Positions 15,091 to 47,540 of a stretch of DNA of 49,971 bases are shown one piece after another. Numbering within the stretch: the stretch's first letter is position 1; every line of letters starts with the position of its first letter. A program made the translations under genes and the position numbers. Origin of the DNA: a virus. The DNA lies in the IMG/VR virus record IMGVR_UViG_3300021091_000118, positions 1 to 49,971 of that record; one strand, written 5' to 3'. The notes under the pieces were generated by a model. The model did no database searches, was not told where the DNA came from, and saw nothing but the letters and a program-made list of their open reading frames with translations.

Positions 15091-15930
15091 TTATTTACAA
15101 TGAAGTGTATTAAAAAACGGACAATACTGGCATGATGTTCTATTTTTCAACGTCATTGGATTCTCCTTAGTAATTCCTTTTACCATCGATCTTACAATTT
15201 TTACAGCATCCTCCATACTCTTCGGTCCGGAACTTATTGAAATCATCTGACATACTTTTTCAACTTTATCAACTTTCTTCAACAACACAAACGCACACTG
15301 CACATCTCTAGATGCTAAATTATTCTTACCCATCCAAAAATGTTTATATAACAATAATTGCATTTGCGTTAAAAAATCCTGCTGCTTTTCACGATCCCAA
15401 CCCCGGGCTGACGCCGTCTTCCAATCAAGTATATAATACTTCCACTTTCCTGCCACTTTCTGCGGCACCTTTATAATGCAATCAATGTATCCCTTAAACT
15501 TTAAAGGTAAATCTTGCATCTCCTCATACAACATCTCTTCAGCAGAAACAGTTTCCCAATTAGGAAAATTTAAATCCATCCAACCAGGTAAAGCTTTTAA
15601 ACTATTTTCAGCCCATTTTTGCCACTTTTCAAAAACAATATGGGTATAATCTTTATTCTTTGTCTCTTGCATCTCTTTCCACTTACCATCAAAATCAACA
15701 CGTAACCACTCAGCTTTTAAATTATTTACCATCTCCTCAAATTTTAACTCTTTGGTCTTTAAAAAATGCTCCACAGCATCATGTACAATTGAGCCATAAT
15801 ACAAATGAGGACTTTCTTCAAAGACATCAACCTTGTCTAAATATAACAATTTGTGTTTCCAAGAACACTCTTTCCATGTTCGAACTTCTGAATACGAAAC
15901 ATGTTCTTTTAGAACTTTCTCTTGCATCAT
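15091..15930 (-). CDS. Cas4/RecB-like PD-(D/E)XK exonuclease with Fe-S cysteines
   Basis: The 279-residue protein has the RecB-nuclease layout. It starts with 'SYSEVRTWKECSWKHK' (C22), then 'YGSIVHDAVE' (H50), 'FKGYIDCII' (D150), 'YILDWKTA' (D169, K171) and a conserved Q in 'DFLTQMQLLLY'. It ends with the cysteine cluster C267, C270 and C278, which together with C22 form the four-cysteine iron-sulphur site of Cas4 and AddB. Such enzymes trim DNA ends in repair, recombination or genome processing. The gene stands apart: its G+C, counted on sample lines, is about 33-42% against about 27% next door, and it has clear spacers on both sides. No cas1 or CRISPR array is nearby, so a phage DNA-metabolism role is more likely than adaptation. 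Confidence 0.8.
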   Translation of the reverse strand: MMQEKVLKEHVSYSEVRTWKECSWKHKLLYLDKVDVFEESPHLYYGSIVHDAVEHFLKTKELKFEEMVNNLKAEWLRVDFDGKWKEMQETKNKDYTHIVFEKWQKWAENSLKALPGWMDLNFPNWETVSAEEMLYEEMQDLPLKFKGYIDCIIKVPQKVAGKWKYYILDWKTASARGWDREKQQDFLTQMQLLLYKHFWMGKNNLASRDVQCAFVLLKKVDKVEKVCQMISISSGPKSMEDAVKIVRSMVKGITKENPMTLKNRTSCQYCPFFNTLHCK

Positions 15931-31843: not shown

Positions 31844-34800
31844 TTAGTTTATCTCCCATTCGCTTATGCCGTCAGACACAAGTGTTATTGATTGTCCTTT
31901 ATATTCTAATATCCATTGATTTAAAGTATCGATTTTGTCAGATCCGTTAGGTTTAATTTTAATATTAAAACCGCTTAAGTTTTCTTTAAACTTAAATCGA
32001 ATAATTGAACCTGCTGCAGCGCTAGTACTAATTGAAGGTAAATTTAAAGTTATTTGTCCAGAATTATCTGTTGTAATTGCGTAATATTTTCCTGCGACAA
32101 TATTAAATTCTGGGCTAGCGGGAGGTGCGGTACTTGATGCAGATCCTACTAATGACTCGTAAGAATATGTTGCAGAAGTTGATTGAATTATTGTTTGTCT
32201 TATTGTTGTATTTCCTGTAATTGCATTAAGCAATTTTGCAGGTGTAACAGCGTCATTACCCGAGCCTGTATCGACTTCATTCTGTGTAGCAAGTTGAATA
32301 AGACCTAAAGACGTTTCTGAAGCTGTGATAGCGCCTGTTTTTAATTTACTATCACCGTCAGTAATTACAAAACTATTGCTTGCAAAATTTGACCCAATTT
32401 CAGGTATATTACCTGTTAAAATTCCAACATCTTTATACGCTGCTGTTTTTAAATTAATTTTATCTTCTTTTCCAGATATCTGACTAGATATTTTAGTTGT
32501 TAATGTCGTGCTACTTCCAACGTTTGTATCAAATAAACTGCTAAAATCGTCAGTTAAAACATACGCAGATAAAGAATCTGACAATTTTGTATTTAAAGTA
32601 TCAGGCGCAATAGGTTTATTTGTTATAGTACCTTCATTAACCTCTTCTTGCGTAGCGAAGTTTATTTTTGCAATAATTCTATCATTCGCATCTGCAACTG
32701 CGTCATATTCAAAAGAAATTGCAGGATCATGTGTCACAGGTTCAATAGGGTCATGTATAAAAAGTGGAGCGATGATCTGATCCTGAATTATTTCTCGATT
32801 TGAATTTACGTCAAATCCTACACCGCCATTACCAAAAAATCCTTCAACAATCCAGTAAGGATCAGCAGGATTACCATTTGACATAAATTTAATGACTTGA
32901 CCCATATTGTCAATATCAATTTGAACGAAACCAGTTAATTGATCCTGAGATATTGTTACTCCGTCTTGCAATAAAAAGCGCTCAGAATTTGGTATTTTTG
33001 TCCAAATTAATAATTTTCCTAATGCGTTTTCTTTCTTGACAACGATTGAATGGCCAATTGAATCAGCAGTAATTTCGGGAAGAATAATTAAATTTTTTTC
33101 ATTCACATTCGTAGAACATGTAACAAAATAATATCGATTTAATTTAGCATTAATGGGATTCCATGGTAAAGAAGCATCATCTAATCCACTATTAACAACG
33201 CCACTTATCTCGTCTGCAGGTTGTATTTGTAAATAATCATAATACTGAAATGTTGCATCAACTGATTTATATTCATCGCTATTTCTATCATATTTTAAAT
33301 AAACTTTATCGCTATTTATATCAAAATCTGTAATAAAACCTAAATTCCATCTTGCATAATTTACTTCATCTTCATGTCGTAATATTCTATTTCCAGATGT
33401 TGCCCCTAATGTTGCCCTTGTTAAGTTTGTCATATCACGACGTGCATATGCAGCAAATAAATCGTCAGGTTTAACTGCATATCCTACACTTGTTGGTGTG
33501 GCATGATTATCTGTAACAGTAGTAGGAAAACCAGCTCTATTTCGAGTATTATAAGTATATGAACCTGAATTATTACCAAATTTAGTTTCATTGGCTTTTG
33601 CTATATATACTTTACCTGCGCCATCATGTCGTAATGATGCGTCTGTTGTATGATACGTATAATTTTTAGCTAATCTAATTTTATTTTGTATTGCAACTGG
33701 TTCATATCCCCCGGCCCCATCAAACTCCTGTGCCGTATGAACAGGTTCGTCATTTTGAAGATCAGGATGAATTTTATTCTTTAATACGTCAAGTTGATTT
33801 GTAATTTGATTATTCCAAAATAAAGAATACTCATCAGCACTCCAATAATCACTTACCCCCGCTAAAGACCCATCGATACCATTTTCAATATGATCTGTTG
33901 TTGTAGTATCTAATGGTAGAACACCTCTTAGACGAAATAAAGAATCTGTATTATATACAATATCATACCAATCTTGTGTATTAATAAAATTATATGTATT
34001 TTTTACATTATCTAACTCATAAACGCCTTCAAACGGTGTATTATTAATCGATTGTAAAACTTCATTTGGGTCGCTATCTGCATAAAAATTAAAACTAGGT
34101 CTAACATTAATAAATTTAGGATGCCAGTCTTCTATCTTTCCAGGATTATAATCTAAATCATTCGTCTCGTGAGGTCCATATGATAAAATCATCCCGTCTT
34201 GTGTAGTTGATTTTAATTTGTCCCCAGTATTAACATCTGTTAAAATATTTCCCAATGCATCTCTTTGCCAGCCTGTTGTATTAACATCAGTAACATCATC
34301 TAATTTTATATTATTTAAAGCACTAAATACAGCAGCGATTTCTGTATCAACATAATTTTTATTTGCAATATTACTGTTATATACAGGATCTTTGACAGAT
34401 GTCCAAATATTATCATCAAATTTAAATGTAGGCAAATAAATATATTCAGGCGGGTCAGCAAGTGGATTTGAATTAATCGTATCAAAAATCAAAGTATCTG
34501 TTGTAAGAGCTTCTTGAAAAATATAATCGTTTAAAACGTCAGTGTTTCTTTTTATTTCAATATAATCTCCACGAAGTTCAAATAAACTAGGTAAACCATC
34601 TACTGTTAAACCTTGAGATTTTAATGAAAGATTTGTGTCAAAATATACATCAGGATCCACAGTCTTAATATCATAATTACCGATACTTACATTTTCATAA
34701 GCCTTAACACCTGCTATTAAATTTTGATTTGCTGTAAAGAAGTTCATTTCGTCTTTAAAAGCAACTTTGTTACCATCTGTTAAATCATGAACATTCACAC

Positions 34801-36922
34801 CTGAAATATCAAGACCAATTAAATTTATATCGTCATAATGTTTAAATTCTATACCTTTTGGATTATGAGGATAATTTTCATAACCTTCATCTTCAAAAAA
34901 AGGCAAAGATGTTCCATCTTGTTGCTGGGAGGCTGTTAAAGCATTTGCAATTGTATCTCGAGCTCTCTCGTCATCATAAAAAAACAAATTATAACCAAGT
35001 GGTTTATAGAAAAATTCTGTTGTGATACCTTTACCATTATTTATTGATGGTTCAAAACCTACTTCGCGAGCAATTGGTTTTTCACCATCTAAAATTATAT
35101 TTCCACTACCGTCTAAACGAAAAGATAATTCATAAATATTATGATCAACATAACAATTACCAGTACCTGCAATGTGTGTATCAGTTGTTTGTGTATTTTC
35201 TTTTTTATAAAAATGTACAGTTTGTAAATCTAACGTTGTATTAACATCTGTTGCATATAATAAAGGACCGTTATATGTATCTGAAGAGTTTAAAATAATT
35301 GAGTTTCTTATTTTTAATTTTGCGTTATCATTTATTTGAGATACACCATATATTTTTGAATTATTAATTTCACAATAAGTTTTTAAATCTGTTAATGTAT
35401 TAAAATTATTTTGACTTTGCCATAAACTAATAACATCAATTCCTAAATTTTCATTCAAATAAGAAATTTCAGATTCTTCAATAAATATTTGACCTTTTTT
35501 TAAATAGATCGCATTATTATTAAAATTATTTTTAACTTTTGAATTTCTTATTTCAATTTTAACATTTGGATTACCAGAATCATCATTAATAATTAATCTA
35601 GAATCTGAAGAATTTGTAATTAAACAATTGATTATTCGAATAGTATATGGTATTTTTGAATTCTGTGAATCTAATATTTTTATTTGTTCAATTTGAACAT
35701 TTTCAAATGTAATAATACCATTCGAATAAATAGCACTTGAAACATCAACTTCTATTTTTTTAAATTTCACATAATCGTCAGCATTTTTATATAATGATTG
35801 TTGATATATATTTGCAATACTAAGTTGTAAGATATTTGTATTCTGATTATATAATCCTGTTGCATCAGGTTTGATTAAAAGTGTTTTAGGTATAGATTTC
35901 TGAGGATTTTGTGCAAGATTATTCTGGTTGATTTGTGTATATACATCAGCGATATTATTAATTTCACCCCGAGCAGTGTCTGAACCTATAAAATAATCCC
36001 ACGGTTTTTTAGAAGAAGTCGCAGATAAATTATTGATCAATGTATCTACTTCGGTTTTGTTGTATGTTTCATCCTTGCGATATGTATTATTTGCTAAAGT
36101 ATCAATAAGCGTTTGTAAAGTATTAAAAACTTCAGGATCATTATTTATAGCGTCTGCTATTTCTTTTAATGTATCTAAAATATCAGGCGCGCCGTTAATT
36201 AAATCAGCGATTGCTGTATCGACAGTGCTATTTACAAATACTTTTGTTGCAAAATCGTCTTTATTAAACCCTAACGATAATGTTAAAAATCCTTCAAGTC
36301 TGTTTGCATCAATCCAATCTTGAGGTTGTTCATACGAGTAATAGTTAGGAATATTTGCAGGGTCAATTTCTGGGTTATTAATTGAAAATTGTCGAGCATT
36401 TTTATAAACAGTAATATCAGGAACGAAGAATAATAAATTTTTATTATCTAAATCTAAAAAAACTTCACCTTGTTTCAAAGGATATGTAATATCAGGATCA
36501 CGGGTTTGATGAAAAGTTTCAGGATCAATTCCATTAAAATTATCTATTGTATAAGGATCATTCCAATAAGGATCTTCTATTTTTTTAAAGAGCAAAGTGC
36601 ATAATATTTTAAAACTATTAAAATCATTTGAAACGTATTCTAAATCATTATCAATATTATCTAATATAGAATTTAATTCATTTCCTCCATTATTGATACC
36701 AAATTTATTATTACGATTATATCGAATGTAAAGATTGTTATTTCCAAAATTTGCTGCATTTAATCCTGGGTTAGTATCAGGCGAATTAACAATATTTAAT
36801 CCACCTCCTTTTATTTCGACAAAGTCTGAATAAATATTCCCAATATAGATATTTCTCCATTTTCTATCAATTTTTCCTAAATCGTTTCCCATATTAAAAC
36901 TAGGGTTAAATGAAGCGACCAT
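31844..36922 (-). CDS. Very long tail-fibre protein (1692 aa), multidomain
   Basis: The N-terminus carries the block's anchor motif ('LGKIDRKWRNIYIGNIYSD'). Residues about 225-270 contain the common fibre phrase 'DTAIADLINGAPDILDTLKEI'. Residues about 390-600 read as a right-handed beta-helix, with short coils ending in I.(N/D)S or I.NS ('KIEIRNSKVKNN', 'QIFIEESEIS', 'KLKIRNSIILNSSD'). Two fibre-shaft phrases of the 'ATQ.EV..G......(T/A)P..L' type occur near the C-terminus, followed by the beta module that also ends other proteins here ('IIRFKFKENLSGFNIKIKP' to 'GISEWEIN'). The beta-helix may bind or cleave surface polysaccharide, but I see no proven catalytic residues. It is by far the longest gene in the window. 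Confidence 0.8.
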   Translation of the reverse strand: MVASFNPSFNMGNDLGKIDRKWRNIYIGNIYSDFVEIKGGGLNIVNSPDTNPGLNAANFGNNNLYIRYNRNNKFGINNGGNELNSILDNIDNDLEYVSNDFNSFKILCTLLFKKIEDPYWNDPYTIDNFNGIDPETFHQTRDPDITYPLKQGEVFLDLDNKNLLFFVPDITVYKNARQFSINNPEIDPANIPNYYSYEQPQDWIDANRLEGFLTLSLGFNKDDFATKVFVNSTVDTAIADLINGAPDILDTLKEIADAINNDPEVFNTLQTLIDTLANNTYRKDETYNKTEVDTLINNLSATSSKKPWDYFIGSDTARGEINNIADVYTQINQNNLAQNPQKSIPKTLLIKPDATGLYNQNTNILQLSIANIYQQSLYKNADDYVKFKKIEVDVSSAIYSNGIITFENVQIEQIKILDSQNSKIPYTIRIINCLITNSSDSRLIINDDSGNPNVKIEIRNSKVKNNFNNNAIYLKKGQIFIEESEISYLNENLGIDVISLWQSQNNFNTLTDLKTYCEINNSKIYGVSQINDNAKLKIRNSIILNSSDTYNGPLLYATDVNTTLDLQTVHFYKKENTQTTDTHIAGTGNCYVDHNIYELSFRLDGSGNIILDGEKPIAREVGFEPSINNGKGITTEFFYKPLGYNLFFYDDERARDTIANALTASQQQDGTSLPFFEDEGYENYPHNPKGIEFKHYDDINLIGLDISGVNVHDLTDGNKVAFKDEMNFFTANQNLIAGVKAYENVSIGNYDIKTVDPDVYFDTNLSLKSQGLTVDGLPSLFELRGDYIEIKRNTDVLNDYIFQEALTTDTLIFDTINSNPLADPPEYIYLPTFKFDDNIWTSVKDPVYNSNIANKNYVDTEIAAVFSALNNIKLDDVTDVNTTGWQRDALGNILTDVNTGDKLKSTTQDGMILSYGPHETNDLDYNPGKIEDWHPKFINVRPSFNFYADSDPNEVLQSINNTPFEGVYELDNVKNTYNFINTQDWYDIVYNTDSLFRLRGVLPLDTTTTDHIENGIDGSLAGVSDYWSADEYSLFWNNQITNQLDVLKNKIHPDLQNDEPVHTAQEFDGAGGYEPVAIQNKIRLAKNYTYHTTDASLRHDGAGKVYIAKANETKFGNNSGSYTYNTRNRAGFPTTVTDNHATPTSVGYAVKPDDLFAAYARRDMTNLTRATLGATSGNRILRHEDEVNYARWNLGFITDFDINSDKVYLKYDRNSDEYKSVDATFQYYDYLQIQPADEISGVVNSGLDDASLPWNPINAKLNRYYFVTCSTNVNEKNLIILPEITADSIGHSIVVKKENALGKLLIWTKIPNSERFLLQDGVTISQDQLTGFVQIDIDNMGQVIKFMSNGNPADPYWIVEGFFGNGGVGFDVNSNREIIQDQIIAPLFIHDPIEPVTHDPAISFEYDAVADANDRIIAKINFATQEEVNEGTITNKPIAPDTLNTKLSDSLSAYVLTDDFSSLFDTNVGSSTTLTTKISSQISGKEDKINLKTAAYKDVGILTGNIPEIGSNFASNSFVITDGDSKLKTGAITASETSLGLIQLATQNEVDTGSGNDAVTPAKLLNAITGNTTIRQTIIQSTSATYSYESLVGSASSTAPPASPEFNIVAGKYYAITTDNSGQITLNLPSISTSAAAGSIIRFKFKENLSGFNIKIKPNGSDKIDTLNQWILEYKGQSITLVSDGISEWEIN

Positions 36923-36943
36923 TATATTTCCTTTAATTTTCTA

Positions 36944-36960
36944 ATTAATAAATAAATATT
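36944..36960 (-). promoter_or_regulatory. Candidate ATATTTA-type promoter element
   Basis: Minus-strand AATATTTATTTATTAAT, beginning 22 bases before the ATG at 36922, in a 78-base gap with no other evident feature. Confidence 0.3.
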
Positions 36961-37000
36961 TCAAAGTATATAAAAACCGATAAATCTAACAAAAAGAAAA

Positions 37001-38698
37001 TTATAGTACTCTATCCCATCTAGGTTGATTCGCTACGATTTGATATCGATAAACATGTGCAGAATCAGTGCCGTTTATTTGTAAAATATTAGTACTTATA
37101 ATATTTGAGCCAGAACCATAAACACGTTGTTTTACTGTAATTGAGCCATTAATAGTGTCAGGTTTTAATACTAACATTGTTCCTACGTTAGCATTATGTG
37201 CGGCATCATCTGCTAAAATAACTGATGACCCGCTTTTTACCTTACAAAATATATAAGAATTAGGTGCAGGTGTAATAAATTTGCTAATATCATAATCTGT
37301 AATAAGATTTGATATAGATTTAGTAGTTGTCATAGAATTAATAACTTGCGTTTTTAAACTATTAATATTAACCTCAAATTTAATAGCATCTTGACCTGCA
37401 GCCGCTAAAGTAGGATTAGGATTAGGCGAAACAAGAGTAGGTGTAATAACAGAACCTGACCCTGTGAATAATTTAAAAAAGTTACTTGAGTCTAATTTAA
37501 TATCAATTTTTTGTGTTTGTGAGTTAAATGATTTTTTTAAAAGCACACCGTCAACTGTTATTGCATTATAAACATCCTGTATAGTAATATTAGAGTTTTG
37601 CAATAAAGTTGTATCAAATGACAATTTTATTTTTTTTGTTAATTGATCCTGCTGTACCTTTATATATTGATCAGTCGATGTTATTGAAGAAAAGACACGA
37701 TCTCTTGAAAAATACATTAAGTCAGTCGCGGCATTTAAGCCAGCAGGTTCAGGAATATTTTTTGTTTCAAGAACAACATTACCTACAGGATTTCCTAAAG
37801 ATGGTAAATTAGGTCTAACAAAAGTAGCGTCTGAAGCTGGTAAATTTTGATTAATCGATTTAATGTAATCAAAATTTGTAGGCTGCGTTAATTGAAGCCA
37901 TGTACTAGGTTTCCAAATATATGTTAATTGCGAACCATCAGTCACTTTCCAAATATCACCTTCAACTAATAAAGTAGTATTAAATTGTAATCTCTGTTGA
38001 TTTGTTCCGGAATAAACTTTTGATACTTGTACAGGCGGATTTACTATATTATCTGGCAATAAAGACAAAGGAATTTGCATATTTTCATCTAGTTTAGGAA
38101 TAATTCGGGTAAGATCTGTTAACTGCTGTTGTGAGCCGTTATTTAGTTGAGAAATACGAAGAAGATTAGAACTATCAGCTAAGGTTGTGGAATTCTTTAA
38201 AGAAAAAGATGTATCAAATCTACCTTGTGTCCACCACAAGTGAGGTAAACCTGGATCATTTGCTACTTCATCAATATCGTCAGTGTATAATGTTAGTTTT
38301 TTTGTATTTGAATCATATTGCTGCTCATTATTAATATCGATTAAATTTATACCTTCAATAACACCAGTTAACTGATTATTTGTTGTAAAATTTGTCAACG
38401 AATCCTTGATATTCTTTATTTCTTCAGCGACATTTATCAAATTAGATCGATTTAACCATTCAGGAATAAATAAATAACCGTCTGTTTGTCTGATATTGCC
38501 TATCGCTGAAATTGCATCTAAAGTTAATTCACTGTTTTCATTTGGGAGTTCATTTGTATTTATATTAATTTTTTCATCCGCATCAATTGCACCAATCCAT
38601 AATTCATTCCAACGAATCGCAGTCGATAAATCATTTAAATCTGTAGGCGGTTTACCTAAAATATGTTGTTTATTAAAATCAGGTCGAAAATTGCTCAT
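37001..38698 (-). CDS. Tail-fibre protein, paralogue of the 477-aa fibre upstream
   Basis: The 565-residue protein begins 'MSNFRPDFNKQHILGK' and has the anchor motif 'AIRWNELWIGAIDADEKI'. It shares with the upstream fibre 'LNDSTT/LLRIS'-type blocks and a nearly invariant segment 'LTLYTDDIDEVANDPGLPHL' then 'WWTQGRFD'. The middle holds the 'IPLSLLPDNIV' and 'EGDIWKVTDGSQLTYIWK' modules, also present in the 546-residue fibre. The C-terminal module ('SYIFCKVKSGSSVILADD' to 'PRWDRVL') is the recurring beta cap. A promoter-like element lies 30 bases upstream. It is a likely fibre subunit; the two paralogues may form alternative or joined segments (inference). Confidence 0.8.
   Translation of the reverse strand: MSNFRPDFNKQHILGKPPTDLNDLSTAIRWNELWIGAIDADEKININTNELPNENSELTLDAISAIGNIRQTDGYLFIPEWLNRSNLINVAEEIKNIKDSLTNFTTNNQLTGVIEGINLIDINNEQQYDSNTKKLTLYTDDIDEVANDPGLPHLWWTQGRFDTSFSLKNSTTLADSSNLLRISQLNNGSQQQLTDLTRIIPKLDENMQIPLSLLPDNIVNPPVQVSKVYSGTNQQRLQFNTTLLVEGDIWKVTDGSQLTYIWKPSTWLQLTQPTNFDYIKSINQNLPASDATFVRPNLPSLGNPVGNVVLETKNIPEPAGLNAATDLMYFSRDRVFSSITSTDQYIKVQQDQLTKKIKLSFDTTLLQNSNITIQDVYNAITVDGVLLKKSFNSQTQKIDIKLDSSNFFKLFTGSGSVITPTLVSPNPNPTLAAAGQDAIKFEVNINSLKTQVINSMTTTKSISNLITDYDISKFITPAPNSYIFCKVKSGSSVILADDAAHNANVGTMLVLKPDTINGSITVKQRVYGSGSNIISTNILQINGTDSAHVYRYQIVANQPRWDRVL
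38226..38295. repeat. 70-bp near-identical direct repeat, copy 1
   Basis: Matches 39727-39796 with three mismatches in 70 bases. It encodes the 'DEVANDPGLPHLWWTQ' segment shared by the two fibre paralogues; one mismatch changes D to N, and at least one other is silent. Confidence 0.9.
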
Positions 38699-38727
38699 AA
38701 AATATCCTTAGCTTTTTATTTAATTGA

Positions 38728-38739
38728 TACTATAAATTT
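38728..38739 (-). promoter_or_regulatory. Candidate promoter element (variant)
   Basis: Minus-strand AAATTTATAGTA, 30 bases before the ATG at 38698. It is a looser match to the ATATTTAGTA element, with two extra bases inside. Confidence 0.22.
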
Positions 38740-38756
38740 AATTATCAATAAGATAA

Positions 38757-40190
38757 CTAAAAAGAAGTAATCAGATTTAGAATTTCATTTCGAACTTCAT
38801 TTATAATTTTTGAGATCAATCCCGCTGTTTCTTTTACTTGAAACGCTTGCGTACCGCCTGTTTTTCTAGAAAATTGAAGATAATTTGTATCAACAAAAAA
38901 TAAAGGCTTTAAAAAATTAAATGTATTTGCAACATATGATCCTCCTGCAAAACTAAGTCTGATTTGCCCAGCCATCGCAGATGCTGTGCCGCTTGTGCCA
39001 CGAAAGTTAAAAGATTTATAAAGATCGGTCGGAATATTCGAATTTGAATTAAAATATTGTCCTGAATGGTTTGGCACAAATGAAAAGCCTAACGAATTAT
39101 AAACTTGTTCAATAGATGAAACAGGCGTATAACCTACCAATGAAAGAGTTGTCTGATTTTCTGCGTTTTTTGTAATTAAAATTGTATTATCTGGTGAATA
39201 AATTGAATCATTTAATCTTTGTCTTGAAAAATATACATTTCGTGCAGAGTCAAAATTAATATTTTGATATTCATTAATATATTGTGTTGTGAAATTTGTA
39301 AGATTTTTTGAGTTATCGATTTGTAAAGAATTTGAATTATTAATTTTTGTTATAATATTATTTTGAGTAATAACATTGCCTATTACTTCAAGCCATTCTG
39401 TGCCATTATATACGTATAGTAAATCATTATCGATCGGATTTGTATTGTCTAATATTTTCCAAAACAAACCTTCAAAAGGTGTTAGATACGTATCCCGTTC
39501 AGCCAAAGTACCAACAACTAATGATTTATTACTAGACATATTATTAACATTTACAATATTAGGAGGCAATAATGACGGATCAATCTTCATAGTTTGCTGA
39601 TTAATTCCTGGAACAGTGCCTGTTGAACCTTCAACTCCAAAATTTAAATCACTAAATCTTAATAAATTATTACTATCATTTAAATCTGTTGAATTCTTTT
39701 GTGAAAAAGCAAGATCAAATCGATCCTGTGTCCACCATAAGTGAGGTAAACCTGGATCATTTGCTACTTCATTAATATCGTCGGTGTATAATGTTAAAAT
39801 TTTATTATTCGGATTATATCTAATAGAATTATTTACACCTATTTCATTAATTTGTCTGATATAATTTAAATCATTATTCTGATTCATTGATGTAACAGTA
39901 TTTGATAAATTTTTTAATTCTTCAGCGATATTCAATATTACAAATTTATCGACAAAATCTCTAATAAAAAAATCGCCCTCTAATAATGAAATATGACCTC
40001 TTGTCTGTAACGCATCATATATTGGGTTTGTTAAATCTAAATCTGCCTGTGAAATGTTAGGAATTCTAACTGATACTCCTACATCTGTATCAATTAAACC
40101 GACCCATAATTCGTTCCATCGAATTATCTCTCCACCGACATTTTTTCCTAATGAATGAACCTTATTACCATCTGGTATTACATTACTCAT
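38757..40190 (-). CDS. Tail-fibre protein, paralogue of the 565-aa fibre
   Basis: The 477-residue product begins 'MSNVIPDGNKVHSLGK' with anchor motif 'IIRWNELWVGLIDTDVGV'. It follows the same order as its paralogue: a helical 'NIAEELKNL' segment, the shared 'LTLYTDDINEVANDPGLPHL' block, 'KIDPSLLPPNIV' and 'AERDTYLTPFEGLFWKILD', then 'LYVYNGTEWLEV'. The C-terminal part differs and ends in a short helix ('KIINEVRNEILNLITSF'), so the receptor-facing end has diverged or been exchanged. The start at 40190 lies inside the end region of an overlapping frame but follows the upstream gene by 25 bases. A coding role is well supported by the paralogy. Confidence 0.8.
   Translation of the reverse strand: MSNVIPDGNKVHSLGKNVGGEIIRWNELWVGLIDTDVGVSVRIPNISQADLDLTNPIYDALQTRGHISLLEGDFFIRDFVDKFVILNIAEELKNLSNTVTSMNQNNDLNYIRQINEIGVNNSIRYNPNNKILTLYTDDINEVANDPGLPHLWWTQDRFDLAFSQKNSTDLNDSNNLLRFSDLNFGVEGSTGTVPGINQQTMKIDPSLLPPNIVNVNNMSSNKSLVVGTLAERDTYLTPFEGLFWKILDNTNPIDNDLLYVYNGTEWLEVIGNVITQNNIITKINNSNSLQIDNSKNLTNFTTQYINEYQNINFDSARNVYFSRQRLNDSIYSPDNTILITKNAENQTTLSLVGYTPVSSIEQVYNSLGFSFVPNHSGQYFNSNSNIPTDLYKSFNFRGTSGTASAMAGQIRLSFAGGSYVANTFNFLKPLFFVDTNYLQFSRKTGGTQAFQVKETAGLISKIINEVRNEILNLITSF
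39727..39796. repeat. 70-bp near-identical direct repeat, copy 2
   Basis: Partner of 38226-38295, 1501 bases away, with 67 of 70 positions identical. Confidence 0.9.
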
Positions 40191-40726: not shown

Positions 40727-42178
40727 TTACAATAAGTTAGCTGCTAAACTTGCCAAATCTGAACGATAACCTCTATCTAAATGAATATGACCGTGTAATG
40801 AAGTATCTTTCATTTTTTCAATGACAATAGTTAAACCATTACTGAATTTATCAACGTATGGTAAATCAACCTGATCAGTGTCACCTAACAAAACGATTTT
40901 ACTATTTTGTCCTGTTCTAGTAATGATAGTTTTTAATTCATGAATTGTAGCATTTTGTGATTCATCAACAATAATAATTGCATCATTGAAAGAACGACCA
41001 CGAATATAACTTAATGGTGCTACATCAATTACTCCGTTATCCATTAATGTTTCAAAGTAAGTTAATGAACCAAATTTATTTCGAAAGTTATCAACGATTG
41101 GAGATAACCATGGAGCCATTTTTTCATTAATATCTCCGGGTAAGAAACCAATATCTTTACCAACAGGTTGAATAGGACGTGTAAAGATAATACGCTTATA
41201 TTTCTTTTTTTCGATTAAGTGTAAAGCAGCCATTAATGTAATATATGTTTTACCAGAACCTGGCATACCTGTCATAGTAACAAGAGGTAATTCAGGATTT
41301 GATAACATCCATAGCGCGTGTAATTGTTCTTTGTTTTTACCTTCGACACTTGTTAAGTTGATTAAATTTTCACGTGTAGGTAAAAGATGTAATTGATTTT
41401 TAAAATAGAAAGTTAAAGCAGATGAACCCCCGAAGCTCTTGGCGACAACGAGCTGATTATCATGTAGTTTAATACTAGAATCGATTTCGGTTAAATCTGA
41501 GATGCTCCCGTTTTTATATAATTGAGATAGTGATTCATCTGAAATGGATACTTCGCTTTGACCGTTATAGAGTAAGTCGGATTCTTTAGTGATGAATTCG
41601 TAATCAGCATAATAGTCGTTGGCTCTTAAACCTAGGGCGTCGCATTTAACTCTGAGATTAATATCTTTTGTGATTAAAATTACTTCAAAGTCATCTCCGA
41701 AATTTTTATCGATGTTTGCTAGGGCGTGTACAATTAAATTATCGTTGGTGTTAGGTAGGACGATATCTTTGATTTCGTTATCGATTTGTGTTAGCCAGAC
41801 TTTTATAAAAATGTCTTTGTCTTCAATGTAAACACCTTCGTTTAGTCCGTCGTTTTCTCTGAGTGAGTCAAGAAAGCGATTGTGTTGTCGGGCTGCGTCG
41901 CCTAATAAACCTGATTTGTCTTTAAATTTATCTAATTCTTCCAACACGACAAATGGAATAAACAGATTATTGCCTTTGAGTTTGAACATGCTGTCTTTGT
42001 CATATAGTAAGACTGACGTGTCTAATACAAAAATTTTTCGAGCGTGTTCTTTTTCTTCTTCGATTTCATCTTCGACATCGATTGCAGATTGCAGAAGATG
42101 AGATGACTCAGGAATATCTTTCTCTAACATACTCATTTTTTGATTAATAAAATGTTTGTTTTCCTTTTGCTGCGACAT
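40727..42178 (-). CDS. phoH: PIN-PhoH protein (PhoH2-type)
   Basis: The 483-residue product has an N-terminal PIN-type ribonuclease domain and a C-terminal PhoH ATPase. PIN features are 'FVLDTSVLL' (D53), an acidic 'LEELDKFK', 'NTNDNLIVHAL' (D146) and 'LITKDINLRVKCDALG' (D172). The ATPase has Walker A 'GMPGSGKT' (304-311), Walker B 'IIIVDESQ' (401-408) and 'LLGDTDQVDLP' (sensor region, about 430-440). Homologues have RNA helicase and RNase activity. The genes are common in marine phages and often tied to stress or phosphate limitation, though their role in infection is not settled. The PIN part seems richer in G+C than the surroundings. It is transcribed divergently from the next gene. Confidence 0.9.
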   Translation of the reverse strand: MSQQKENKHFINQKMSMLEKDIPESSHLLQSAIDVEDEIEEEKEHARKIFVLDTSVLLYDKDSMFKLKGNNLFIPFVVLEELDKFKDKSGLLGDAARQHNRFLDSLRENDGLNEGVYIEDKDIFIKVWLTQIDNEIKDIVLPNTNDNLIVHALANIDKNFGDDFEVILITKDINLRVKCDALGLRANDYYADYEFITKESDLLYNGQSEVSISDESLSQLYKNGSISDLTEIDSSIKLHDNQLVVAKSFGGSSALTFYFKNQLHLLPTRENLINLTSVEGKNKEQLHALWMLSNPELPLVTMTGMPGSGKTYITLMAALHLIEKKKYKRIIFTRPIQPVGKDIGFLPGDINEKMAPWLSPIVDNFRNKFGSLTYFETLMDNGVIDVAPLSYIRGRSFNDAIIIVDESQNATIHELKTIITRTGQNSKIVLLGDTDQVDLPYVDKFSNGLTIVIEKMKDTSLHGHIHLDRGYRSDLASLAANLL

Positions 42179-42263: not shown

Positions 42264-42530
42264 ATGTCCAATAAATCACAACTCGCAGAAAAAACATGTT
42301 TTTATTATCATCAAAAGCTGAATAAGTGTTGTCAAAAAAAAGAATGTCGTTATTTTCAAAATAATATTCCAGAATCTCAAAATTGTATTATTAATAAATC
42401 AAATGAAAAAGAACATACCCTTGAAGAAATAGGAAATATTTTCGAAATTTCCCGAATGAGAATATGTCAATTAGAAAAACAAATTATTTTAAAAATTAAA
42501 GAAACTGTTACAAATCAATTTTTCTCTTAA
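42264..42530 (+). CDS. Small cysteine-cluster protein with sigma-70 region-4-like HTH
   Basis: The 88-residue product is one of only three genes on the plus strand. The N-terminus has a probable metal site: C12, H16, C22, C23, C28 and C41 in 'CFYYHQKLNKCCQKKECRYF' and 'NC'. The C-terminus (about 50-80) is a clear sigma-region-4-like helix-turn-helix, 'HTLEEIGNIFEISRMRICQLEK', matching the T.(E/Q)EIG..(F/L).(V/I)SR.RI.Q(I/L)E pattern that reads the -35 element. There is no region 2, so it is not a full sigma factor. It may be a DNA-binding regulator or partner of the gp55-like sigma factor (inference). Expression opposite to almost all neighbours suggests a separate, perhaps early, promoter. 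Confidence 0.75.
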   Translation: MSNKSQLAEKTCFYYHQKLNKCCQKKECRYFQNNIPESQNCIINKSNEKEHTLEEIGNIFEISRMRICQLEKQIILKIKETVTNQFFS

Positions 42531-42538
42531 ATTAAGAG
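42524..42538. other. Perfect 15-base palindrome spanning two convergent stop codons
   Basis: CTCTTAAATTAAGAG is a perfect inverted repeat around 42531. It contains the TAA stop of the plus-strand gene (42528-42530) and, on the other strand, the TAA stop of the minus-strand gene (42532-42534). No uridine tract follows on either strand, so it is at best a weak bidirectional terminator. Confidence 0.5.
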
Positions 42539-42777
42539 CCTGATGAATCGTCTGATGAAGAAGGACGATATGCATCTGACCATGTTACAGTTGTCTTAAC
42601 TGCGTCTGAAACCTTTGTTCTTAATAATCTTAAATCTTTTCGTACTCTAACACCTGCTGCTGCATTACCTGACGCGCATTTTAGTAAATCTGCATGTAAT
42701 GATTCAAGCAGAATTTGTAATTGTCTATAAGTGTCTTCACATTGTGATACTAGTTCTTGTCTAACTTCTTTTGCCAT
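42532..42777 (-). CDS. Histone H1/Hc1-like small DNA-binding protein
   Basis: The 81-residue product matches the helical core of bacterial histone-H1-like proteins: a helical N-terminus ('YRQLQILLESLHADLLKCASG') followed by 'NAAAGVRVRKDLRLLRTKV'. The N-A-A-A-G-x-R-x-R-K-x-L motif is the family signature. Family proteins bind and compact DNA or act as general nucleoid regulators. Unlike chlamydial Hc1, the C-terminal tail is short and acidic/Ser-rich ('SSSDDSSGS'), not Lys-rich. It is convergent with the sigma-4-like gene, the stops being one base apart. It might coat phage DNA or modulate host nucleoid structure (inference). G+C is higher than in its neighbours. Confidence 0.65.
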   Translation of the reverse strand: MAKEVRQELVSQCEDTYRQLQILLESLHADLLKCASGNAAAGVRVRKDLRLLRTKVSDAVKTTVTWSDAYRPSSSDDSSGS

Positions 42778-42794: not shown

Positions 42795-43070
42795 TTATAC
42801 TATAATTTTTTTTGTTGTATTGTCTACAATTTCTTTTGTAGCGTCTGTGTCATTATTTTTATTACTTTTTAAACTTTGTAAACTATTAATTTTGTTTTTT
42901 GTTAAAATAATGACACTTTTCGAAAAGTCAGTGTCTTCAGAGTTTAGTGCAAGACCTTGAATTATTCGTGCAATACACTGTTCTGTAACGCCATAACTTA
43001 AAATATCTTGAACAATTTTTCTAGAACGTTCAATTGAGTTTAAAGTTTCTTCTACACTTTTTTCTTTCAT
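42795..43070 (-). CDS. Small unknown helical protein (91 aa)
   Basis: The product is soluble and helical by eye: 'VEETLNSIERSRKIVQDIL' and 'CIARIIQGLALNSEDTDFSK', then a charged C-terminal tail rich in Asp/Thr/Lys. I recognise no family. Its ATG overlaps the TGA stop of the upstream gene as ATGA (43067-43070), a classic coupled start. It belongs to a run of small genes between phoH and the helicase that probably act in DNA or RNA metabolism. Confidence 0.7.
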   Translation of the reverse strand: MKEKSVEETLNSIERSRKIVQDILSYGVTEQCIARIIQGLALNSEDTDFSKSVIILTKNKINSLQSLKSNKNNDTDATKEIVDNTTKKIIV

Positions 43071-43555
43071 TTTAAATCCCTTTGATATGAATCTTGTCGA
43101 ACTGTAAATTTACCATCTTCAAAAATTAAAAATTTACAAACAATATTGTCGCCTATCACTTTTTTATTTAACATAATCGTGTCTGATGCTTTTTTACTAT
43201 ACAGATATGCTGCTTTTTCAAAATCAGAAATATCTGCATTATTTTTACTCAAGACATCAATCAGTTCAGATGTTAATGAAAATTTTAAATCGTCTAATGT
43301 CGTGACTAAATCAACGTAATCATCACTTTTCTTTAACAATTCTGATTTACAAATATCATATACTCTATGCACACAATCACAATTATTACATTTTACATAT
43401 TTTTCAATAACACTTCCCACAGCAAAATCGTCTGTTTCGTTTTTCTCGTCTTTAAACAAAGTAAAAACAGGAAATTTATGAAAAACAGGTCGATTATGAT
43501 TTTTATATTGAGGTAAAATACATTGACACTCAACTAAATGTGTAAGATATTTCAT
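43067..43555 (-). CDS. Conserved-type protein with Cys-rich metal site (162 aa)
   Basis: The product begins 'MKYLTHLVECQCILPQYKN' and continues with 'VFHKFPVFTLF' and 'YVKCNNCDCVHRVYDICKSEL'. C55, C58, C60 and C68 (approximate numbering) with nearby His could bind zinc, together with C10 and C12. I associate this pattern with a small conserved protein of marine T4-like phages whose function is unknown to me; I am giving that from memory, not a search. The C-terminal half is helical, then beta ('NIVCKFLIFEDGKFTVRQD'). It overlaps the next gene by four bases. Confidence 0.7.
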   Translation of the reverse strand: MKYLTHLVECQCILPQYKNHNRPVFHKFPVFTLFKDEKNETDDFAVGSVIEKYVKCNNCDCVHRVYDICKSELLKKSDDYVDLVTTLDDLKFSLTSELIDVLSKNNADISDFEKAAYLYSKKASDTIMLNKKVIGDNIVCKFLIFEDGKFTVRQDSYQRDLK

Positions 43556-43582: not shown

Positions 43583-43978
43583 TTATTTTTTATCAATATC
43601 ATGTTTTTTAATTTCTGTAGCAACTGTTTTCAGGACATTATCTACAACAAGTTGCTTCGATACAAGCAATTCCTCAGTAATTATTCTATTTAAATCGTTA
43701 ACAAACTCTGTTGATAAATTGTACTTTTTAACCATATCTGTTTTAACTTTGCTTAGAATTTTATCATGAATAACATCAAATAATGAATACACTGTTTTTC
43801 CTAGTAATGTTGAATTACCTAATTTTTGACTTAATTGATCTCTTAATGTCGTTAATTGTTCTAATAACATATCTTTTCCTTCTTCTTCAATTTCATTTAG
43901 TGTTTTATTAACATCGTTTTTAACAGTTGCTAATACATTTTTAACAACACTTACTGTTGTGCTGCTTCTCTTTGCCAT
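43583..43978 (-). CDS. Small helical unknown protein (131 aa)
   Basis: I take the ATG at 43978 ('MAKRSSTTVSVVKNVLATV'); an extension to 44053 would add a hydrophobic lead made from the overlapping upstream gene and is less likely. The product is almost wholly helical with a basic start and coiled-coil-like heptads ('EEEGKDMLLEQLTTLRDQLSQ'). No family is recognised. It overlaps the 3' end of the GroEL-apical-like gene by 38 bases in another frame, so translation of the two is probably linked. Confidence 0.65.
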   Translation of the reverse strand: MAKRSSTTVSVVKNVLATVKNDVNKTLNEIEEEGKDMLLEQLTTLRDQLSQKLGNSTLLGKTVYSLFDVIHDKILSKVKTDMVKKYNLSTEFVNDLNRIITEELLVSKQLVVDNVLKTVATEIKKHDIDKK

Positions 43979-45209
43979 AATTATTTTCACTTTCTTTATT
44001 ATCTTTAAAACAGATAATAGTGTTAATTTGTATAAGTTTATTATAAAATTCATTTGCGAATTTTTCCGTTACATCTAGTAATTGTGCAGGAAATATTTCA
44101 TTGTTTTTTTCTATAATTCCGTACTTAGATAAGGAATTATAAATAAAAAGTGAAGTTTTTACATCATTTAATATATTTTTTTTATTTTTAGGTATTAAAA
44201 TATCAACTTTTTTACTCTTTATTCTTTTTTTTCTAAACTTTAAATACTCTTTAAATTCTTCTTTTTCAATTAATAATGTGTTTATTTCATTCATCAAATC
44301 TTCCCGATTATGACAAAACTCAATTGACGATGAAGTTAAAACAATATTTTGCAATAATTTTAATTTATTTTTAATCTGTATAATCGTTGGATTTCCATCT
44401 TCTATTTTTACACTGTCGACACCTAAACAACGACATAAATCGTCAAATTTAGAAGGATCTTCATTTGTAAAAGGACACTCGTATATTAGAACAGGACATT
44501 TAGTATATAAAATATTTCTTTTAATATTTTGTACACAAGGTATATTGGTGCCTCTACATAATACAACAATCATTTTATTCTGATTTTGTTGACTTTCAAT
44601 ATATGCATATTGTAAATCAGTATCTCTTTCTAAAAATCCATCAATTGCAACAAAAATAATATCTCGATGACTTTTTAAATTGTCAGAAAATAGAATATTA
44701 TTTAACTCTTCGTGACAAAATATCTTTTCAAATCTTGTAAAATTTTCTTTCTTAATTTGAATTTTATTATTTGCAGTAAAATCTAAATTAATTAAAACAT
44801 CAGGACCTACAACTGAAAATATCGTTAAAATTAAATCAATATTCTCTTTATCAACATAATTTAACAATATTTGATATAAATCTTGTTTTTGCGCTTTTCT
44901 TCTTTTATATAAAAATTTTTTATCTGTTCTTTCTTTCAAAAATAAATCACATAAATTTTGTAATAATAACTCAGAACTATTCGGAAATATCTTTTCAGAT
45001 TCTATTAACCAATCAATAAATAAAGAATGATACGGTGTTTTATTTAAATTTTCAGCGCTTTTTAGTAAATATTTATATAAAAAATTATTGTTTTTTGAAT
45101 AAACATTACCAATAGAATCAATGATTCTATATTTCCCAAGATTAAAATCTTTAATAAATTTTTGAATTCTTAATAATTCTTTTAATAAAGTATTATTGAT
45201 CTTTGTCAT
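43941..45209 (-). CDS. GroEL apical-domain-like phage protein
   Basis: I start at the ATG at 45209 (GGGAAGAAGAAA upstream), giving 422 residues; a longer reading would use a TTG at 45278. The central part (about 150-310) resembles the GroEL apical domain: 'INLDFTANNKIQIKKENF', a 'F(L/I)ERDTDLQ' analogue of the helical turn, 'KMIVVLCRGTNIPCVQNI' corresponding to P(L/I)(L/V)I(I/V)AE.V.G.AL, 'CPVLIYECPF' for VKAPGFG, and 'FDDLCRCLGVDSV' for L.DIA.LTGG. ATP-site motifs of the equatorial domain (GDGTTT, DGT) are not visible. It may be a substrate-binding protein derived from a chaperonin, or an ancient look-alike. The N-terminal 130 and C-terminal 100 residues are helical and unrecognised. Confidence 0.55.
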   Translation of the reverse strand: MTKINNTLLKELLRIQKFIKDFNLGKYRIIDSIGNVYSKNNNFLYKYLLKSAENLNKTPYHSLFIDWLIESEKIFPNSSELLLQNLCDLFLKERTDKKFLYKRRKAQKQDLYQILLNYVDKENIDLILTIFSVVGPDVLINLDFTANNKIQIKKENFTRFEKIFCHEELNNILFSDNLKSHRDIIFVAIDGFLERDTDLQYAYIESQQNQNKMIVVLCRGTNIPCVQNIKRNILYTKCPVLIYECPFTNEDPSKFDDLCRCLGVDSVKIEDGNPTIIQIKNKLKLLQNIVLTSSSIEFCHNREDLMNEINTLLIEKEEFKEYLKFRKKRIKSKKVDILIPKNKKNILNDVKTSLFIYNSLSKYGIIEKNNEIFPAQLLDVTEKFANEFYNKLIQINTIICFKDNKESENNYGKEKQHNSKCC

Positions 45210-45465
45210 TTTCTTCTTCCCGTTTCCAGTCTTTTGAAAATTCTTTTTTACGTTTTTCAGATAATTTAAAATTTTCAAATAATGATACTACAGAATTTTC
45301 ACGTCTAGCATCAAAAATATTTTTTTGTTCAAAATATACTTCAGCAGTATGACTTAATATTGCAATAACAAAAAGCAAATAAGCGTAGTTATACGCTATT
45401 TCAGAAAAACCAAATAAAATAATTGATGACAATATACAAACCGATTGAAATTGTAAAAAATACAT
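45193..45465 (-). CDS. Small two-helix membrane protein
   Basis: The 90-residue product has two hydrophobic segments in residues about 5-50 ('CILSSIILFGFSEIAYNYAYLL' to 'FVIAILSHTAEV'), then a charged, basic-acidic cytoplasmic tail ('EKRKKEFSKDWKREEENDKD'). It overlaps the GroEL-apical-like gene by 17 bases. Two close hydrophobic segments and a charged tail would fit a holin- or membrane-remodelling-type protein. However, nothing specific marks it as a holin and no lysin lies beside it, so the role is left open. Confidence 0.6.
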   Translation of the reverse strand: MYFLQFQSVCILSSIILFGFSEIAYNYAYLLFVIAILSHTAEVYFEQKNIFDARRENSVVSLFENFKLSEKRKKEFSKDWKREEENDKDQ

Positions 45466-45905: not shown

Positions 45906-47540
45906 TTATAACTTTACATATGATTCGTGAAAATCTTCAGAAAATAAATCTTTATTTTTGTTATATACTCTTTCCCAATCAGCATCTAAAATATACGTTA
46001 CTGCATAATCTTTTTCATTTCTAATTGAACGACCAATTGACTGAATTACTGTTCTTATAGTTTGCGTATCATACCACCACTTCCATTTGTTCATTTTCTT
46101 TTTTACAACTTTATCACCTAAATACGGAAATGGCACTTTACATACGATCTGAAAACGACTTAAATCATCTTTCAAATCAACACCTTCAGCCATCGATGGT
46201 GACAGTAATATCGTAGGTTTTTCCGACATCATATGTTGCTTTAATATAGCATCTCGATCGCTCCCGTGCGCAATCAATAAACGACCACTTTTAACATGAT
46301 TTTTAAGATATTCAGCGACTTTAGTTGAATGAGTGTGAATAATGCCTTTTTCATTTTTATGTTCTTCCATTATCTTTTTAACATAAGCTGCTAAATTAGG
46401 TAACGTTTTATCGATATTTCCAGTAGACATACTACCTGCAGGGCTGAATATCGTAGGTTTGTTCTTTGCATCAAATGGCGAAGCTTCCTTAACACATACA
46501 ACTTCAGCAGGATTTAAACCTAAAGTTTCCATATAACCTTCTAACGAAACAATAGTTGCTGACATGAAAATGATCTTATCTGCGTATTCTAACAAATATT
46601 CCTGTGCATATTGAGAGACATCAATAGGTTTAAAATTAAATTTAATATAACCCATTTTTTCAGTCGATTCAACTTCACATACCCAATTTTCTTTATTATA
46701 AATCGATAAAAACTTTTCTATTTTTCCATAATGACTTTTCATCATATCAACTTGTTTTAGTAAAGATAGATGTTCTTGCAATTTATCGCCTAAACCCATA
46801 TTGTTAATTTGCTTTTCCATAAATTCTTTTCGAGACTTTAACGCTGGAAAATATGTTGTTTCAATCCAATTAAAAATACGCAATTGAGTATTAAGATCAT
46901 CAATATTAGGTAAATTTAATTTTAAAACACGCTCAGCAAAAAAAGTTGAAACAGAAATTTCAATAAATCGACTTAACTCATTTTCTAAATTGTGTGCCTC
47001 ATCAATAATAATTACTTTACGTTTAGGTAACTTCTTTGAATAATTAATCTCAGTCAAAAAATAACTAAAATTGGTAATACCAAATTCTGCATTTATAAAT
47101 GCTGCCTTTTTAATTTTATACACACAATCAAATTTGCAAGATTCATTTTGTGTATCACCAGCTTTAATTTCTGTTTGTGTGTCAGCGCATGTATTACCTT
47201 TCTTTCTTTGACACTTGTAATTTGATGAAGAGTAAATTGATTCTAAACCTTTTTCGAAAAAATCCTTTTCATATTGATCTTGTAAAATCTTTTGTGTCGT
47301 TAAAAAATATGAGGCATTGGAAAATTCAGCATTTTCAGATACAGTTAAATTTTTATTTAAATACCCGGCCAATGTTAAACCAATTGCACTTTTTCCAATA
47401 CCAGTCCCTGCTTCAATAATTGCATATTTTTTATTTTCATTTTCAAAAGCATTTAATACTTTATTAATAATTCGACTTTGGGCATCACGAGATTTAGAAA
47501 AAGGAAAATATTTTAACCACATTTGATCATTAATTTCCAT
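45906..47540 (-). CDS. XPD/DinG-type Fe-S DNA helicase
   Basis: This 544-residue superfamily-2 helicase has Walker A 'EAGTGIGKS' (43-51) and a probable four-cysteine Fe-S cluster (C110, C118, C135, C139) between motifs I and II. It also has the DEAH box 'VIIIDEAHNLENE' (180-183), 'KIIFMSATI' (motif III), 'GIIHTHSTKVAEYL' (motif IV region), 'LLSPSMAEGVDL' (motif V) and 'VIQSIGRSIRNEKD' (motif VI, Q..GR.(I/L)R). XPD/DinG enzymes unwind DNA 5' to 3' and act on forks, R-loops or bubbles. A phage version could work in replication or recombination (inference). It ends just before the acidic leader-peptide gene and is complete. Confidence 0.9.
   Translation of the reverse strand: MEINDQMWLKYFPFSKSRDAQSRIINKVLNAFENENKKYAIIEAGTGIGKSAIGLTLAGYLNKNLTVSENAEFSNASYFLTTQKILQDQYEKDFFEKGLESIYSSSNYKCQRKKGNTCADTQTEIKAGDTQNESCKFDCVYKIKKAAFINAEFGITNFSYFLTEINYSKKLPKRKVIIIDEAHNLENELSRFIEISVSTFFAERVLKLNLPNIDDLNTQLRIFNWIETTYFPALKSRKEFMEKQINNMGLGDKLQEHLSLLKQVDMMKSHYGKIEKFLSIYNKENWVCEVESTEKMGYIKFNFKPIDVSQYAQEYLLEYADKIIFMSATIVSLEGYMETLGLNPAEVVCVKEASPFDAKNKPTIFSPAGSMSTGNIDKTLPNLAAYVKKIMEEHKNEKGIIHTHSTKVAEYLKNHVKSGRLLIAHGSDRDAILKQHMMSEKPTILLSPSMAEGVDLKDDLSRFQIVCKVPFPYLGDKVVKKKMNKWKWWYDTQTIRTVIQSIGRSIRNEKDYAVTYILDADWERVYNKNKDLFSEDFHESYVKL

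Follow-up and report, generated by a model that had tools for sequence, protein, structure and literature searches.

Chaperonins are textbook ATP machines. The locus described here raises the question of what a phage could do with a chaperonin relative in which the ATPase is no longer recognizable, and of what kind of protein such a relative is. The gene lies on a 49,971-base IMG/VR virus record, itself a fragment, with a GC content of 24-31%; the whole stretch was analysed and is called the window below. It encodes T4-type baseplate proteins, long tail and fibre proteins, a PhoH and a helicase, which indicates that the record is a piece of a T4-like phage. Amid its tail genes lies a Cas4/PD-(D/E)XK-type exonuclease (15091-15930, minus strand). 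The gene in question, for which we use the name pseudochaperonin, is the following.

43941..45209, minus strand: pseudochaperonin gene, 422 amino acids, with the ATG at 45209 and the stop at 43941

A protein search of the virus collection retrieved one close relative, L001, with 62% identity. Further relatives were reached via the conserved neighbours, that is the helicase and a Cys-motif protein, F1, and in locus after locus the open reading frame at the same place proved to be a member. The alignment used here, A5, comprises 31 members. Longer members, of 472, 466, 464, 464, 440 and 428 residues, came from a virus scan with the F1 of a diverged clade, and the members of 472, 466, 464, 440, 428 and about 400 residues represent a natural reduction series.

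The gene product is, with near certainty, homologous to the group I chaperonins (GroEL/Hsp60). Taken alone, the window protein has no Pfam match (the curated cut-off of PF00118 was not reached) and no NCBIfam match, and its single relevant PHROG match is 5725, "chaperonin groEL" (E 6e-5, residues 119-332 against profile positions 155-377). The same PHROG matched the true GroELs in 14 of 14 control genomes, and is matched by 11 of the 31 family members, at best with 2.8e-11. A profile of all 31 members found group I chaperonins in the PDB (E 4.1e-11), with profile positions 102-333 aligned to chaperonin residues 142-379, and the profile of the diverged clade alone found the same PDB chain (E 7e-4). 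Profile-profile comparison, suggested as a check by the first-pass annotation of this DNA, also led to GroEL: hhalign matched the family to a GroEL alignment with a probability of 98.2 (E 5e-14, GroEL 154-419), and the apical slice with a probability of 98.4. With the longer relatives included, the profile reached an E-value of 2.2e-24 against the PDB. One longer relative, L099, matched PDB chaperonins on its own in phmmer (1.8e-17), and the six longer relatives matched a GroEL profile with E-values from 5e-30 to 1e-13. Furthermore, L094 matches GroEL 73-411 and 496-522, and L096 matches 117-380 and 495-524, so that equatorial residues are visible by sequence in those longer relatives. Equatorial slices of the window's own clade gave no significant sequence match; the C-terminal slice was not significant, yet it landed at the right place (GroEL 492-522). 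For the window's own protein, the equatorial homology is suggested by the predicted model. Every significant sequence match in the PDB, and every structure match among those listed, belongs to group I. The prospect of chance similarity or an AlphaFold artefact in a protein unrelated to chaperonins is negligible. It could draw on the window protein reaching just 6e-5 in one library when taken alone, and on its close relative L001 scoring nothing, but profile, profile-profile, single-sequence (for the longer relatives) and structure searches are concordant, with E-values down to 2e-24, and two clades match chaperonins independently.

AlphaFold2, run on the GroEL-free alignment A5, produced a model with a pLDDT of 85 and a pTM of 0.67; a model made from two sequences (pLDDT 35) was discarded. 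The top Foldseek matches in the PDB were all chaperonins (E 1e-15), and phage GroELs were matched in the viral library, where weak matches to glycosyltransferases and others were rejected as unrelated. According to VIA-align, the model superposes on an isolated apical domain (5cdk) with a Z-score of 17.8 and an rmsd of 2.6 A over 171 residues. Profile, hhalign and structure matches thus bear out the first-pass annotation, which had read the central part as following the order of the GroEL apical elements and had regarded a fold unlike that domain as fatal to the idea. Against whole GroEL chains, Z was about 17 over 381-400 residues, with model residues 1-404 lying on GroEL 8-526; the rmsd of 7-10 A is as expected from rigid-body rotation of the domains. 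This alignment indicates that each of the three domains has a counterpart in the model, with a reduction of the equatorial one. On the DNA, the parts are arranged as follows.

44889..45209, minus strand: residues 1-107, reduced N-terminal equatorial segment, placed by AlphaFold2 secondary structure, structural alignment and residue table (not significant as a sequence-only slice)
44760..44888, minus strand: residues 108-150, first intermediate-domain segment, placed by profile, hhalign and AlphaFold2 model
44217..44759, minus strand: residues 151-331, forming the apical domain, which is conserved better than any other part (73% identity to L001), placed by hhalign and VIA-align
43998..44216, minus strand: residues 332-404, return intermediate helix and shortened C-terminal equatorial part, placed by model and merged alignment
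43941..43997, minus strand: residues 405-422 and stop, a tail past the end of the family, low confidence

In the N-terminal segment, helices stand where GroEL has helices A-D, while the phosphate-binding loop and D52/D87 are lost and GroEL 135-150 is missing. The intermediate domain is present as two segments flanking the apical domain, the second being partly missing in L028-L035. Within residues 332-404, a helix corresponds to GroEL 377-410 with the invariant G410, and an equatorial helix and strand correspond to GroEL ~495-524; GroEL 418-467 is missing. A free apical-type domain, as initially envisaged, or a natural mini-chaperone was therefore rejected, since model residues 1-404 align to GroEL 8-526. 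As judged from the model, the protein is a degenerate whole chaperonin subunit, in which the two intermediate segments are retained along with a curtailed equatorial part.

The size drops from about 545 residues in a GroEL/Hsp60 subunit to about 400. In the merged alignment, at least 80% of the members lack GroEL 29-33, 42-46, 135-150, 418-455, 460-467 and 477-493. The missing 418-455 and 460-467 make inter-ring contacts in GroEL, and the inter-ring residues E434, D435, R452, E461, S463 and V464 have no counterpart in the family. Asp is found at the position of D52 in none of the 31 members, at D87 likewise in none, and at D398 in a single one (L027). The motifs GDG[TS]T, [KR]DG[VA][TS]V, [TS][LM]GP and GGG are absent from all 31, compared with 8-11 of 12 true GroELs in which the glycine and phosphate motifs were present. 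Alignment columns could be assigned only approximately in the N-terminal equatorial part; the absence of the motifs is independent of these assignments. The six longer relatives have lost the ATPase residues too, with K, S or N at the D398 position as counted from the invariant G410. With both the ATP site and the inter-ring segment gone, the GroEL cycle cannot run. The earlier remark that the nucleotide-binding equatorial motifs are not visible was thus right about the motifs; the domain itself is reduced and degenerate, not absent.

The substrate groove presents a mixed picture. Positions Y199, Y203, F204 and L237 are hydrophobic in 30-31 of the 31 members, and L234 and L259 in 21-22. At the helix-I positions V263 and V264, hydrophobic residues occur in just 6 of 31, and the window protein has K and R. 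Hydrophobicity is retained there in the L028-L035 clade and in some longer relatives, suggesting that the change took place mainly in the window's branch. In GroEL, one substitution at either V263 or V264 is enough to abolish the binding of polypeptides and of GroES. The replacement of both valines by mostly non-hydrophobic residues, K and R in the window, makes canonical binding of unfolded peptides or of GroES by this protein doubtful. The hydrophobic groove that the first-pass annotation had proposed to test for is kept in its aromatic and L237 positions and altered in helix I.

The gene is under purifying selection. Close pairs have a dN/dS of 0.05-0.13, and the pair of window protein and L001 (P0001/L001), which is near saturation, has 0.34. 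Among cultured phages, tblastn with P0001, L033 and L019 revealed no orthologues, and the matches listed for L099 and L089 were annotated or evident GroELs only, with 22-27% identity and none covering 80%. In all, the 50,697 phage records contained no orthologue, their matches being true GroELs only; a GroEL match is carried by 251 phage records. One pattern scan of 84,980 cellular genomes, which is weak evidence, gave no cellular orthologue. A recent duplication of a co-resident phage GroEL was considered and found unsupported: in a FastTree phylogeny built from the intermediate and apical regions (rooted at the midpoint, no formal test), the members share a single long branch, separate from every GroEL, the co-resident ones of two large relatives (G002/G003) included. 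What the window reveals is an ATPase-dead family of group I chaperonins, fixed in an uncultured lineage of T4-like phages. Ordinary chaperonin genes are reported from marine virus genomes (PMC5332604), and the literature searched describes no ATPase-dead group I chaperonin in phages.

The surroundings of the gene are strongly conserved. In the window, the block and its flanks read as follows.

45906..47540, minus strand: helicase (PHROG 2488), which bounds the conserved block upstream
45193..45465, minus strand: open reading frame of 90 amino acids, overlapping the pseudochaperonin start, hydrophobic and membrane-like as judged from its sequence
43583..43978, minus strand: gene for a 131-amino-acid protein between pseudochaperonin and F1, its start overlapping the 3' end of the pseudochaperonin gene
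43067..43555, minus strand: F1, Cys-motif protein (ECQCILPQY..FHKF..CNNC..H), partner gene of the pseudochaperonin in every locus
42795..43070, minus strand: F8, small conserved gene, block member
42532..42777, minus strand: F5, histone H1-like Hc1 match (PF07432, above cut-off), conserved in 27 mapped loci
42264..42530, plus strand: F3, 88 amino acids, on the opposite strand, conserved in 30 loci
40727..42178, minus strand: PhoH-like ATPase (PHROG 2765), downstream border of the block
31844..40190 (31844-36922, 37001-38698, 38757-40190), minus strand: long, probably tail-fibre proteins downstream of PhoH, with fibre PHROG matches in 31844-36922 only

Gene order was mapped in 32 loci, some of which overlap on one contig: helicase (replaced by PrkA in the diverged clade), in some a NUDIX gene, pseudochaperonin, in some a small gene, F1, F8, F5, F3 on the opposite strand, PhoH, small genes, and then long, probably fibre proteins. 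The pseudochaperonin stands beside F1 in all 32, and does so wherever an IMG/VR locus extends far enough for this to be seen. In later, distant loci it is again found upstream of F1, L012 and L030 being truncated ends. F1 itself has no Pfam or PHROG match and was not found in cultured phages. Nearly all loci that extend far enough have the probable fibre genes after PhoH, at some 3 kb downstream from the pseudochaperonin. The linkage to a fibre locus, which the first-pass annotation had proposed to look for in relatives, does exist, yet it is not tight: PhoH comes in between, as do four to five small genes, of which one has the opposite orientation, and the fibres are no closer than PhoH or the helicase.

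Directly upstream of the pseudochaperonin, the diverged clade (L028:670-5073, L029, L031-L035, L089-L096) has genes for DUF444 (YeaH), SpoVR and the PrkA kinase in a row, which amounts to a stress operon of bacteria on phage genomes. Both distant clades also encode, directly upstream, a short protein that is hydrophobic and membrane-like (window 45193-45465, minus strand; L028:5076-5312), and these two proteins do not cluster together.

Two large relatives (211 kb and 239 kb) have, in addition, a gene for a GroEL with intact motifs and a length of 543 amino acids (546-codon open frame); the window record and the other records are fragments. A search for Cpn10 in 20 records, which would not detect a gp31-like cochaperonin, found none. 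The capsid protein of the lineage belongs to the T4 gp23 family. In T4, the folding of gp23 needs GroEL together with gp31.

What remains of the subunit, as seen in the secondary structure of the model, is an apical module, an intermediate hinge and a small base with a hairpin and a C-terminal strand. The pseudochaperonin probably helps a particular phage protein to fold or assemble, in a way unlike any described phage system. We see about an even chance that this reduced, ATPase-dead group I subunit, devoid of the inter-ring segment, serves as a client-specific adaptor or assembly chaperone, working without an ATP cycle. With its diverged apical face, the protein would bind a single specific client. 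Neighbourhood and lineage point to a virion protein as the likeliest class, for example the gp23-type capsid protein or a fibre, the former because T4 gp23 needs a chaperonin, the latter because of the downstream fibre locus. The client would then be stabilised directly, or presented to an active chaperonin, which could be the GroEL of the host or, in phages that encode one, their own; that the protein docks there by what is left of its equatorial edge would be a further guess. Tentatively, one may imagine a two-gene system of catalytic and non-catalytic group I proteins, in which the dead subunit docks on an active GroEL of host or phage and delivers a specific viral client. Against the adaptor reading, most members have polar or charged residues at V263/V264 (K/R in the window), which speaks against a general binding of unfolded peptides, and PhoH, the helicase and genes without assigned function are nearer than the fibres.

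A holdase or assembly chaperone that serves the long tail fibres on its own, as the first-pass annotation had in mind, binding fibre chains directly with its apical face and without GroEL, would profit from the confirmed apical fold, from the retained aromatic positions F204 and Y203, and from probable fibre genes following PhoH some 3 kb downstream in nearly all loci reaching that far. It is rather unlikely, given the genes in between (PhoH and the four to five small ones, not all on the same strand), the polar or charged groove residues of helix I, and the established knowledge that T4-like fibres mostly use small unrelated chaperones. Unlikely as well is a subunit that joins GroEL rings of host or phage to retune or poison them, for instance by enlarging the cage for a gp23-type capsid protein or by diverting the machine from host clients. 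The intra-ring beta-hairpin and C-terminal strand of GroEL do appear to have counterparts in the model, an intact GroEL is co-encoded in two genomes and the capsid protein is of the gp23 family; however, the equatorial domain is heavily shortened and lacks the inter-ring segment, and the family branches far from the co-resident GroEL. Still more improbable would be a chaperonin fold reused outside folding, in replication, transcription or host takeover. The altered groove and the fixed neighbours (helicase, NUDIX, Cys-motif protein and PhoH, with PrkA-DUF444-SpoVR in the diverged clade) fit such a job, and this neighbourhood is conserved more strictly than the distance to the fibres, but phage gene order often mixes functions and no domain has been gained.

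Comparison with known systems places the client-specific adaptor reading in context. With GroEL/Hsp60, including the phage proteins (Pseudomonas phage EL gp146, Bacillus phage AR9, and those of Flavobacterium and Vibrio phages), the pseudochaperonin shares homology by sequence in the intermediate and apical parts and, in the model, domain order and fold. It differs in length (about 400 residues against 520-550), in lacking the ATP-site Asp, the glycine loops and GroEL 418-467, and in the changed V263/V264. Mini-chaperones, that is the isolated GroEL apical domain (~191-376), superpose on its apical domain at 2.8-2.9 A (1kid, 1la1); they consist of the apical domain alone, whereas here it sits within a whole reduced subunit and has changed peptide-binding residues in helix I. 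Another second chaperonin paralogue beside a working one may be seen in the mycobacterial Cpn60.1 and other atypical type I chaperonins, reported to be purified as lower-order oligomers and to be full-length and near GroEL in sequence (PMC10952152); the pseudochaperonin, in contrast, is without much of the equatorial domain. In BBS6 and BBS12, the chaperonin architecture is kept while the ATP-hydrolysis motif is degenerate, and the view is that neither folds proteins itself and that their role is to connect the client BBS7 with the active chaperonin CCT (PMC5534436). The likeness of the BBS proteins (MKKS/BBS6, BBS10, BBS12) to the pseudochaperonin would be one of working principle, not of kinship: they are eukaryotic, derive from the group II CCT8, carry insertions and have a known client, whereas the pseudochaperonin belongs to group I and carries deletions. 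With T4 gp31/GroES, the purpose of adapting a chaperonin to a phage capsid protein may be shared; the fold is unrelated, gp31/GroES being a small beta barrel that caps the ring and the pseudochaperonin a descendant of the ring subunit.

A family that has done away with the ATPase, with the inter-ring segment and with a large part of the equatorial domain, and has kept its apical domain under purifying selection, indicates that the remainder of a chaperonin subunit can be useful without the machine. The family may also be relevant to the folding of gp23-type capsid proteins in a T4-like lineage without a Cpn10 match in the 20 records searched. The idea of a catalytic and non-catalytic pair is directly testable in the two genomes with both an intact GroEL and a pseudochaperonin. 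The intact phage GroEL genes are located at L078:4898-6529 and L079:4981-6612, with no neighbouring GroES, and adjoin genes for two proteins recognized from sequence only, one resembling sigma-70 factors and the other a 5'-3' exonuclease.
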